Below the pieces are notes generated by a model. That model worked only from the letters and a program-made list of their open reading frames with translations. It did not search any database and had not been told where the DNA came from. Of a DNA stretch of 32,760 bases, positions 19,262-23,808 are shown piece after piece. Positions within the stretch are counted from its first letter, which is position 1. The number at the start of each line of letters is the position of its first letter. Location: positions 1-32,760 of the IMG/VR virus record IMGVR_UViG_3300037485_000435; one strand, given 5' to 3'. The DNA is from a virus. The position numbers and the translations under genes are program-made.

Positions 19262-19519
19262 ATGATGAAAGAAAAAATTAAGAAAATTGATCAGTTAATG
19301 ACACTTTTAACTGAGATGAGAAAGCAAATTCAAGAGCTACAAGATGAGCAAGCTGCTGAAGAGAGACTTTACACATGGTCAATCAATTTCATATCTCACA
19401 AAGAGTATGAAGACTATCTGTCAAAGCATAACAATATCTCAGACAAAATTAATATGCTTTTAAAGACCTATGCACTGATCTCAAATGAGATGTCAAAAGT
19501 TTGTTTAAATCTAATCTAG
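19262..19519 (+). CDS. Small coiled-coil early protein
   Basis: This 85-residue protein is almost entirely helical, with a charged N-terminal coiled coil (KIKKIDQLMTLLTEMRKQIQ and onwards) and a second helical region after residue 50. It is the first gene after a strong early promoter, a position where phages often encode host takeover or anti-defence proteins; I have no evidence for a specific target. A longer frame from TTG 19241 lies within the promoter, so ATG 19262 (or 19265) is the start. Confidence 0.6.
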   Translation: MMKEKIKKIDQLMTLLTEMRKQIQELQDEQAAEERLYTWSINFISHKEYEDYLSKHNNISDKINMLLKTYALISNEMSKVCLNLI

Positions 19520-19856: not shown

Positions 19857-19983
19857 ATTCAAGCTGCATAGCAAAGCTAAATGGCAAGATGCCTATAGAG
19901 TGCTGCAAGCTAATAGCAGAGAGGATGCAATCAAGAAGGCTGATATGTGGCCGCCATTAATTAAAGCAGTGCAAGAGATATGA
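19831..19983 (+). CDS. 50-residue early protein, unknown
   Basis: This frame starts within the preceding gene and ends with an ATGA overlap with the next. The product has a beta-strand-like start (MKTFKITYRFKL), then a helical ANSREDAIKKADM segment. The strand-then-helix outline with REDAIKKA is common in small phage proteins of about 50 residues with unknown function. It lies between a membrane protein and a DnaA-like protein. Confidence 0.5.
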   Translation: MKTFKITYRFKLHSKAKWQDAYRVLQANSREDAIKKADMWPPLIKAVQEI

Positions 19984-20399
19984 ACACATCAATGATTATG
20001 GATCTAGCTGAGAAGCATGGTCTCAAAGTAAGGAATAGAAAGAGAGAGCTGGTGTACAAGAGATACTATCTCTGGTCAGAGCTGCGAAGATGGCACAGTC
20101 TTTCAGCCATTGGTGAAATGTTTAATATGGATCACTGTTCAGTATTGCATGGACTCAAGCAGCACAATGTGTGGATGAAGGCCAAAGATTATGAATATCT
20201 GAAGACAATCAATGAGCTGCACAAGGAAGTACATGAAGATTATCTGATTGATATGGAGGATGAAAAGGTATGGATGTATGTGGATAATATATCAGGCAAC
20301 ACAGTTACTTTGACAATCAAGCTCAATACAGACGATTCTAGCCACTTTCTCAATAGGAATGGATACATAACTAAGGAAGACTTAAAAGAATTGATATGA
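19980..20399 (+). CDS. DnaA domain IV-like DNA-binding protein
   Basis: This 139-residue protein contains a stretch that resembles the DNA-binding domain IV of the replication initiator DnaA: HSLSAIGEMFNMDHCSVLHGLKQ (about residues 39-61), where MDHCSVLHG corresponds to the RDHTTVLHA signature of DnaA. There is no ATPase domain. The C-terminal half (about 80-139) is an unrelated acidic region. The gene lies about 250 bp before a cluster of repeated AATCGG motifs, which are possible binding sites. It may recognise the origin, recruit or compete with host DnaA, or act as a regulator. Confidence 0.65.
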   Translation: MNTSMIMDLAEKHGLKVRNRKRELVYKRYYLWSELRRWHSLSAIGEMFNMDHCSVLHGLKQHNVWMKAKDYEYLKTINELHKEVHEDYLIDMEDEKVWMYVDNISGNTVTLTIKLNTDDSSHFLNRNGYITKEDLKELI

Positions 20400-20650
20400 G
20401 GAACAAAATAAGACGAATGTCGGCTATTGTATATTGCCTTCAACAAAGAGCATACACAATTGAAAGACTGCACAGCAAAGTAAATCACATTCTATCCGAT
20501 AACTTTAGTAAGTCATCCATTGAGAAAGATATGTTTATGCTTAGAGAAGAGTTTGATTGTCCAATTGAAAGATGCACATCTGGCTTGATTATCATTGAGG
20601 ATTATGATTTCATTTCAAAGCTCACAGAATGGGTGCAGCTGTATGAATAA
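20396..20650 (+). CDS. Winged-helix-type small regulator candidate
   Basis: This 84-residue protein reads like the HTH part of DeoR/WYL-type regulators: a basic first helix (RNKIRRMSAIVYCLQQRAYT), a second helix IERLHSKVNHIL, a recognition-type helix with SKSSIEKDMFMLREEF and a wing-like FDCPIERCTSGLIIIEDY. No effector domain is present. It is the last gene before the repeat-bearing control region, making it a candidate to bind those repeats and regulate the early promoter at 20836-20864. It is coupled to the upstream gene through ATGA. Confidence 0.55.
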   Translation: MRNKIRRMSAIVYCLQQRAYTIERLHSKVNHILSDNFSKSSIEKDMFMLREEFDCPIERCTSGLIIIEDYDFISKLTEWVQLYE

Positions 20651-20656
20651 TCTGAT

Positions 20657-20834
20657 TGCCGATTACATCACTCCCTATTCTATATATATTTATTTTTTTT
20701 AGAAATGGTAAAAAAACATTTTTTTCAAAAAACTGCAAAAAAGATTGGAAAATCGGCTGTTGATTGATTATCAATAAGTTACAAGAGAAATAAATCGGCA
20801 GTAAATCGGATGTATAAAAATAAATCGGCAGTGA
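20657..20834. repeat. Cluster of AATCGG repeats (iteron/operator-like)
   Basis: Four forward copies of an AAATCGG core followed by CTG, CAG or ATG lie at 20750-20760, 20791-20801, 20802-20812 and 20821-20831, and one inverted copy of AATCGGCA lies at 20657-20664. Copies two and three are directly adjacent (11-bp step). The last ends 4 bases before the -33 element of the promoter. The spacers are very AT-rich with long A and T runs (20686-20745). This fits a replication origin with iterons, an operator array, or both. The rest of 20651-20969 holds the promoter and a leader RNA. Confidence 0.7.
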
Positions 20835-20835
20835 A

Positions 20836-20864
20836 TTGACTTTAAAAAAATTTATTTACATTTG
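20836..20864 (+). promoter_or_regulatory. Bacteroidetes-type promoter of replication operon
   Basis: TTG (20836-20838) and TACATTTG (20857-20864) with an 18-base spacer match the phylum consensus within its known range. Transcription should start near 20871, far upstream (about 100 bases) of the first ATG at 20970. The repeat ending at 20831 touches the -33 region, so a bound protein could block or activate the promoter. Confidence 0.8.
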
Positions 20865-20870
20865 CATATC

Positions 20871-20952
20871 CTATGCCGAGGATTAGAAAGAACATTATTT
20901 AAAGCTCTTTCGGTTAGTAGTGCGGCATCACGAACACTGAGAGGGCTTTTTT
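20871..20952 (+). ncRNA. Structured leader or small RNA with terminator
   Basis: Between promoter and first gene lies an RNA of about 80 bases. Its 3' half is a hairpin: 20901-20911 (AAAGCTCTTTC) pairs over 11 positions, two of them G-U, with 20939-20949 (GAGAGGGCTTT), followed by Ts at 20947-20952. The loop holds CGGCAT (20923-20928), flanked by GTG and CAC, and this is perfectly complementary to ATGCCG at the very 5' end (20873-20878), allowing a pseudoknot. It could be an independent small RNA or an attenuator controlling the replication genes. Confidence 0.6.
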
Positions 20953-20969
20953 ATTTAAACAACTTGCAC

Positions 20970-21230
20970 ATGAAACATGTAAGAACTGATGGTTCAGGGA
21001 TGAACTATCAAAATGAAAGAATGACAACTTTATCAAACTTTATCAAGCATTCTGCTATAATTGATGATAATAAAATTGACTTGCTAAAGGATCACAAAGG
21101 TGACTTAGAGGTGTACTGGAATGAGATGCCACTATCTCATGAGAAAAAATCTATTAATGCTTTATGGGAATACTTGAATGAGTACATTGTCACTCATTAT
21201 TTAGTAACTAAAAGCATTGAAGAGATATGA
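20970..21230 (+). CDS. Early protein upstream of primase, unknown
   Basis: This 86-residue acidic, helical protein is the first gene after the structured leader and overlaps the primase-helicase start by 4 bases (ATGA). The frame extends up to a TTG at 20862, but that lies in the promoter and the leader hairpin, so I take ATG 20970; ATG 21000 is possible too. Recognisable segments are MTTLSNFIKHSAIIDDNKID and SINALWEYLNEYIVTHYL. No known family. The position suggests a replication accessory role. Confidence 0.55.
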   Translation: MKHVRTDGSGMNYQNERMTTLSNFIKHSAIIDDNKIDLLKDHKGDLEVYWNEMPLSHEKKSINALWEYLNEYIVTHYLVTKSIEEI

Positions 21231-23604: not shown

Positions 23605-23808
23605 ATGAAACAAACAGCAGCAATAATGATCCTAGTATGGGCCGCAATCTTTGCACTATTCATTAGCAAGCTATCAGAGCAGAAGACAATTGAGCCAGCT
23701 GAGAAGCATAAGTTTACATTTGTAAATCACAAGGACTGGGCAAGAGATACAACTATGGCACCAGGTAAAACATTAACACTAGATAGAATTTATGAACAAG
23801 GAAAATAA
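23605..23808 (+). CDS. Small membrane-anchored protein
   Basis: This 67-residue protein starts with a hydrophobic segment (residues 4-21, TAAIMILVWAAIFALFIS), consistent with a signal anchor, followed by a polar domain of 45 residues with a WARDTT motif. The start lies 2 bases after the primase-helicase stop, and the end overlaps the nuclease gene by 17 bp. Function unknown; a periplasm-facing role is inferred from the anchor. Confidence 0.5.
   Translation: MKQTAAIMILVWAAIFALFISKLSEQKTIEPAEKHKFTFVNHKDWARDTTMAPGKTLTLDRIYEQGK

Follow-up and report, generated by a model that had tools for sequence, protein, structure and literature searches.

We consider it probable that the region ahead of the primase-helicase gene in the phage genome examined here is a replication-initiation cassette with two separable elements: a repeat array read by the primase, and a leader RNA that works as a kissing-loop attenuator. 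Little is known about the replication control of Bacteroidota phages, and the comparison of relatives exposes a conserved, covarying kissing-loop RNA at the head of their replication operons. Natural module swaps also link an orphan repeat array to a specific initiator, making origin prediction testable in these phages.

The genome and its replication region

The window, meaning the whole stretch of 32,760 nt that was analyzed, is the IMG/VR record IMGVR_UViG_3300037485_000435. It carries a 127-bp direct terminal repeat, and its end and start adjoin each other in relatives, so we take the record to be a complete genome and read it as a circle. Table 1 lists the features of the region.

Table 1 Features of the replication region, in coordinates of the window
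Feature	Position	Strand	Remark
DnaA domain-IV-like protein, 139 aa	19980..20399	+	Bac_DnaA_C E 1.5e-5, below the Pfam cut-off
84-aa protein	20396..20650	+	its stop codon marks the left edge of the swapped segment; type-B homology ends at 20650
Inverted repeat copy, AATCGGCAATCA on the minus strand	20659..20664	-	identical in all type-A relatives
A+T-rich stretch CTATTCTATATATATTTATTTTTTTT..., between inverted and direct copies; candidate duplex-unwinding element	20672..20742	.	putative role, from sequence
Pair of direct copies at a distance of 8 bp; the first, GATTGG, is degenerate	20743..20756	+	same 8-bp pair in L296/L297
Three direct AATCGG (20793/20804/20823), spacing 11 and 19 bp	20793..20828	+	11/19 also in L295, with the unrelated unit CTTGCAC
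Promoter, Bacteroidota type: -33 TTG 20836-20838; -7 TACATTTG 20857-20864	20836..20864	+	
Leader hairpin 1: stem ATCCT/AGGAT; loop L1 ATGCCG (20873-20878)	20868..20883	+	
Leader hairpin 2: stem 20901-20914/20936-20949; loop L2 CGGCAT (20923-20928)	20901..20952	+	
Small extra ORF, 76 aa, between leader and primase	21000..21230	+	absent from most type-A relatives
VirE_N (BT4734-like)/PriCT/DUF5906 primase-helicase, 791 aa	21227..23602	+	putative cognate initiator of the array

A sequence-only reading of this DNA had reported four direct copies of AATCGG and one inverted copy, and these are indeed present at 20751, 20793, 20804 and 20823 on the plus strand and at 20659 on the minus strand. Type-A relatives (defined below) have one additional direct copy, which in the window is degenerate (GATTGG, 20743). 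The longer unit is approximately (A)AATCGG[C/A][A/T]GT, with a 30-bp imperfect tandem at 20788-20847. The A+T content is 74% over 20651-20860, and the A+T-rich stretch beside the inverted copy, CTATATATATT in the window, is similar in L294, L295 and L306. Between the end of the last AATCGG and the TTG of a Bacteroidota-type -33/-7 promoter there are 7 bp.

Over the whole window the hexamer occurs 9 times against 3.26 expected, a number reached in none of 100 shuffles. Five copies of one 6-mer within the 190 bp from 20651 to 20840 were likewise not seen in any of 300 dinucleotide shuffles, where the maximum averages 2.1. Since two other 6-mers in the genome also have five copies within 175 bp, the AATCGG count alone is only moderately unusual, and it is the conservation in 13 type-A relatives that decides. 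Another local 6-mer cluster is seen upstream of the DnaA-like gene, where ATCTCA/TGAGAT occurs five times within 175 bp (19312-19486).

A minimum of the cumulative GC skew at the array had been proposed as support for an origin. There is none, as each 1-kb bin around the circle has a positive skew. With genes mostly on one strand, GC skew is not able to locate an origin here, and it is uninformative rather than contrary.

Array and primase are exchanged together

Relatives were gathered by two protein-guided scans, which gave 20 and 19 loci. In type A, comprising 13 relatives and the window, the AATCGG array stands with a VirE_N/PriCT/DUF5906 primase-helicase. The six type-B relatives (L023, L027, L030, L031, L037 and L038) have the same DnaA-like and 84-aa genes; the AATCGG array is absent, and a Prim-Pol/DUF3987 protein is found instead. 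Their own array consists of GTGCAC/GGTGTGAAATTA units, with TGCACA ten times in 230 bp (0 of 300 shuffles). Homology of type B to the window stops at 20650, is present over the leader at 20851-20956 and resumes at 23605, right after the stop codon of the primase.

An intermediate arrangement is found in L022. Its identity with the window is 95% as far as 20832, immediately beyond the last repeat; a complete type-B cassette follows, and from 23605 the identity is again 95%. Judging by these junctions, L022 is a natural recombinant in which a recent swap left the old AATCGG array behind. As the array is kept there without its primase, it is able to persist alone for some time.

Judging by the loci compared, the repeat sequence goes with the downstream primase and not with the upstream genes. 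Absence of the repeats from close relatives that keep the flanking genes had been named as evidence against the candidate origin; such absence is found with regard to the upstream genes and not with regard to the primase.

More distant relatives show what is kept when the primase diverges. In L295, with a primase 70% identical to that of the window, an inverted GTGCAAG is followed by CTTGCAC at +135, +11 and +19, the distances in the window being 134, 11 and 19. In L296 and L297 (primase 66% identical) an inverted CCAAT is followed by ATTGG at 82, 8, 44 and 10, compared with 85, 8, 42 and 11 in the window. The primase of L294, like that of L295, is 70% identical and accompanied by other repeat units. 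In this comparison of repeat spacing in relatives, which the sequence-only reading had recommended, the spacing is largely kept while the unit changes along with the primase. Upstream of primases of 42% identity, a simple count of repeats is mostly not above chance, except in L350 and L363.

Within the primase, the C-terminus is the most diverged part, with 26-43% identity compared with 78-88% in the helicase core, and it weakly matches a replication-initiation PHROG. Sequence searches against solved structures gave nothing relevant. Because the unit changes with the primase, the C-terminus diverges most and the PHROG match points to replication initiation, we infer that the primase reads the array. 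Origin function and autoregulation are likewise suggested.

What the array does

The array is probably an initiator-binding, iteron-like element around an A+T-rich stretch, serving as an origin and also as an operator of the adjoining promoter. The sites between 20659 and 20828 would be bound by the downstream primase-helicase, most likely via its C-terminal domain. The sequence-only reading had offered an origin with iterons, an operator, or a switch coupling replication to early transcription. Its general direction is borne out in that the array is conserved, flanks an A+T-rich stretch and swaps with a replication gene, as an initiator-binding array would; the coupling switch fits better the leader RNA at 20868-20952, which that reading had missed.

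It is unlikely, though worth weighing, that the array is only an operator, through which the primase or another phage protein represses the promoter while replication starts elsewhere. The last copy lies so near the -33 element that the overlap would suit operator and origin alike, L295 has its final copy even closer to the -7 element, and GC skew gives no sign of an origin. A single promoter, however, needs no inverted copy 134 bp off across an A+T-rich stretch. Moreover, the spacing is kept in a relative with different units, and the partner with which the array is co-exchanged is a replication enzyme.

Reading of the array by the DnaA-domain-IV-like protein, the 84-aa protein or host DnaA is improbable. 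The DnaA-like gene adjoins the array, and DnaA-IV-like proteins are often encoded upstream of the leader RNA described below (L047, L194, L237, L202, L217, L220, L187, L203 and L228, with a HATI/VxHG-type motif recognized by eye). But the products of 19980-20399 and 20396-20650, which had been put forward for gel shifts as partners of the array, are 84-87% identical in relatives entirely without it, whereas the array follows the primase. Consensus DnaA boxes are not enriched (4 in the window, 5.3 expected), and none lies inside the AATCGG array. A perfect consensus box, TTATCCACA, is located within the DnaA-like gene itself (20279-20287, minus strand). A tblastn search with the DnaA-like protein against named phages gave no match. 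The label of a winged helix-turn-helix protein given earlier to the 84-aa product is unproven, as Pfam gave no match and PHROG a single very weak one, to a group of unknown function (E 0.077).

Two known systems help to place the favored reading of a primase-bound array. The alpha protein of bacteriophage P4 is a primase, helicase and initiator that acts with ori. As there, a primase-helicase gene stands beside a repeat array, and the C-terminal part, which covaries with the repeats, is the likely DNA-reading part. Unlike in P4, the array immediately precedes the gene, the protein has an N-terminal part of the VirE_N/PriCT type and binding is predicted from sequence; furthermore, P4 is a satellite of Enterobacteria, whereas the phages here are caudoviruses of Bacteroidota. 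In iteron plasmid origins, direct repeats adjoin an A+T-rich stretch, and the initiator gene has its promoter next to them. The same three components are found here, but the copies are few and irregularly spaced, a distant inverted copy is added, and the initiator would be a primase-helicase rather than a RepA/RepE-type protein. The array adds a new case to the iteron-like arrays that are linked to a primase.

A leader RNA with complementary loops

Directly behind the promoter, the segment 20868-20952 forms two hairpins whose 6-nt loops are perfect complements. The second contains a loop-E-like AGUA/GAA motif (20916-20919 and 20932-20934) and GUG/CAC, and shows the features of an intrinsic terminator, a 14-bp stem leading directly into a U-tract (20947-20952). 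A simple terminator scan with a loop limit of 8 nt did not report it. The leader is alike in types A and B (77-92% identity) while the sequence on both sides changes, and within this A/B clade the L1/L2 pairs AUGCCG/CGGCAU, ACGCCC/GGGCGU, AUGCAG/CUGCAU and ACGCAC/GUGCGU are each fully complementary. Against a covariance model of the family, the window scores 84.6 bits (E 3.8e-17), being itself one of the training sequences of the model.

Searches of Rfam 15 with the window and 13 other loci gave no match above the gathering score and no relevant sub-threshold match. The L10 leader (RF00557) aligns to 20841-20961 with 24.7 bits, far below its gathering score of 44; unlike in L10 leaders there is no ribosomal protein gene, and it is mostly the A+T-rich flanks and the terminator that are alike. 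The open-access literature searched held no description of an RNA of this kind, which is not proof of absence, and the leader RNA appears to be undescribed. A leader peptide was also considered. A reading frame that crosses hairpin 2 (SSAASR) runs, in several members, into an ATGA that overlaps the following gene. Neither the start codon nor the frame is conserved, however, with differences in the window, L008, L027 and L029, and the conservation is therefore better explained by RNA structure.

The leader RNA family

Further members came from pattern scans of viral contigs, in which stems and genes are unrelated. The search pattern fixed AGTAGTG...CACGAA, so that this core is invariant by construction. 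Of 48 distinct sequences in which hairpin 2 is strong and a U-tract is present, 47 have an exact loop-1 partner in an upstream hairpin, compared with 0 of 26 other pattern matches; the loop partner had played no part in the selection for this count. Covariation was scored on 25 non-redundant sequences selected for an exact loop partner. All six kissing pairs covary with double changes and are 100% paired (score 0.774, 0.171 when shuffled). Over the whole leader structure, double changes are seen in 20 of 25 pairs (0 of 500 shuffles), with helices 1 and 3 covarying too. At least 15 different complementary loop pairs occur in the family.

The position of the RNA is equally regular. In 46 of 47 members loop 1 is preceded, at 7-14 nt (in one case 21 nt), by a -7 element TAnnTTTG, which is present in 3.1% of background windows; the transcript therefore probably starts at hairpin 1. 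The U-tract follows CACGAA by 10-15 nt, also in members found without requiring it; one entry in the compilation of promoter and U-tract positions, L075, is a chance match. From CACGAA to the next ATG the distance is usually 18-40 nt, and in most members 10-30 nt separate the end of hairpin 2 from the first replication gene. With the covariance model, exactly one copy was found in each of 24 phage records. The replication operons that follow are unrelated to one another and include some without an AATCGG array (L047, L057 and L220). Conversely, L294-L297 and the loci with primases of 42% identity gave no match to the covariance model. Array and RNA are thus independent modules.

The loop-1 sequence can occur once more. 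All 47 members have the upstream complement, loop 1, and 28 of them, not including the window, have a downstream copy as well. In 27 of these 28 it lies 3-5 nt before the ATG; this is the clade with XXGCAG loops, and the copy tracks four loop variants. The same six nucleotides before the start codon would give loop 2 two alternative partners.

Isolates were reached via relatives of the primase and the covariance model, as direct BLAST of the leader RNA against named phages returned nothing convincing. Cultivated Flavobacterium and Olleya phages contribute more than 100 records with the leader RNA (47 and 70, some of them duplicates). It is found ahead of the replication genes in the Flavobacterium phages elemoE (E 6.8e-7) and mumin (E 0.008), with loops of 7 and 8 nt, respectively. 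Near relatives differ by compensatory loop changes: GUGGAGG/CCUCCAC in elemoE is UGAGAGC/GCUCUCA in elemoA, and GUGGAACG/CGUUCCAC in mumin is GUGAGACG/CGUCUCAC in filifjonk. The RNAs of mumin and filifjonk are 92% identical while the replication genes behind them differ, the same picture as in types A and B. These isolates open the function of the RNA to bench testing now.

A pattern scan of cellular genomes gave eight matches, none in Bacteroidota, which we take as chance. The pattern ATGCAG...AGTGCTGCATCA likewise found mostly chance matches, L113 being the only new true member seen.

How the leader might act

Both hairpins, the loop-loop pairing and the place between promoter and replication gene are strongly supported by this covariation and positional regularity. 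From these features we infer that hairpin 2 terminates transcription, that kissing changes read-through and that the downstream copy provides a second state. The operon transcript would begin with 20868-20952, hairpin 1 lying at about the transcription start, and the loop of hairpin 1 would kiss that of the terminator-like hairpin 2. The leader would then be a conditional terminator, or attenuator, whose state is set by the loop-loop contact, and attenuation would meter the expression of the initiator and hence replication. In the XXGCAG clade loop 2 could pair with either loop 1 or the translation start, giving two mutually exclusive states. Hairpin 2 looks stable without loop 1, and the effect of the kissing contact is not obvious.

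The leader could instead be a processive antitermination or protein-recruitment element, similar to the put RNA of HK022 or a nut site, its kissing complex acting on RNA polymerase or on a protein to let transcription continue into the operon. Binding would be favored by the rigidity of such a complex and its loop-E motif, and the leader starts the replication operons of phages with unrelated replication genes. Antitermination does not, however, need a U-tract at a nearly fixed distance, as hairpin 2 has, and we regard it as unlikely.

Still less likely is an antisense action of the terminated leader (about 85 nt) in trans, as in P4 immunity or plasmid copy control, in which its loops would pair with those of a second RNA molecule and so limit replication or exclude related phages. 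The loops differ among near relatives, with 4 of the 12 differences between mumin and filifjonk falling in the 16 loop nucleotides (P 0.023), and in the A/B clade 6 of 12 loop columns vary. In P4, the CI RNA pairs with sites on either side of itself, terminating transcription ahead of the replication genes (PMC4825925). Against this, pairing in cis should outcompete pairing in trans, and the A/B loops are not clearly more variable than the linker columns (6/12 and 16/34). Lysogenic immunity in particular appears unlikely, since Phage_integrase is found in none of 22 records and the muminphages are described as only lytic (PMC7077304).

A role as replication primer, resembling RNA II of ColE1 and with the array as its regulator, is very improbable: its transcription, next to the candidate origin, leads away from the array and on into the replication gene, but the same RNA precedes array-less operons, and several of the phages carrying it encode primases or primase-helicases.

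For an attenuating leader, the nearest described logic, by analogy, is the termination control by CI, seqA and seqC in P4. In both, an RNA leads the replication operon, premature termination is a likely output, and a short sequence is complementary to an upstream site and, in one clade here, to a downstream site. Unlike in P4, the contact is a covarying loop-loop pairing inside a single short leader, which has a loop-E hairpin; integrases are lacking in these phages, and the leader RNA, predicted from sequence, gives no sign of a processed trans-acting RNA. Plasmids of the pT181, pIP501 and pMV158 types control their copy number by RNA loop contacts and attenuation. The putative control of initiator expression by such contacts is shared with them, but their partner is an antisense RNA from the opposite strand, whereas both loops here are in one transcript.

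The contact may meter initiator expression or mediate interference between phages. Tentatively, we propose a widespread, uncatalogued family of phage RNAs in which an intramolecular kissing contact of 6-8 nt sets the expression of the replication operon, and whose loops diversify like address codes, so that phages co-circulating on the same host carry mutually non-pairing switches. If the loops are such specificity codes, they would offer ready-made orthogonal RNA switches and a possible means of phage competition.

Further observations on the loci

A hairpin AGUAGUG-UUUAUA-CACGAA with a U-tract is present without a loop-1 partner or an adjacent first hairpin in L226 (7237-7315), L249 and L252. 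Genes of the HNH-like, homing-endonuclease type were noticed by eye beside the leader RNA in L048 (10120-10632) and downstream of it in L202, L245 and L184. Upstream of the array in L296 and L297 lies a short promoter-terminator unit (TATCTTTG or TATATTTG ... ATTCTCTGTTTAATCCTCC ... GGGGAGGGTTTTTTTT), perhaps a different small RNA. The ORF at 21000-21230 is an insertion in the window and in L008; it is in frame with an open frame running through the leader and ends as an ATGA overlapping the start of the primase.
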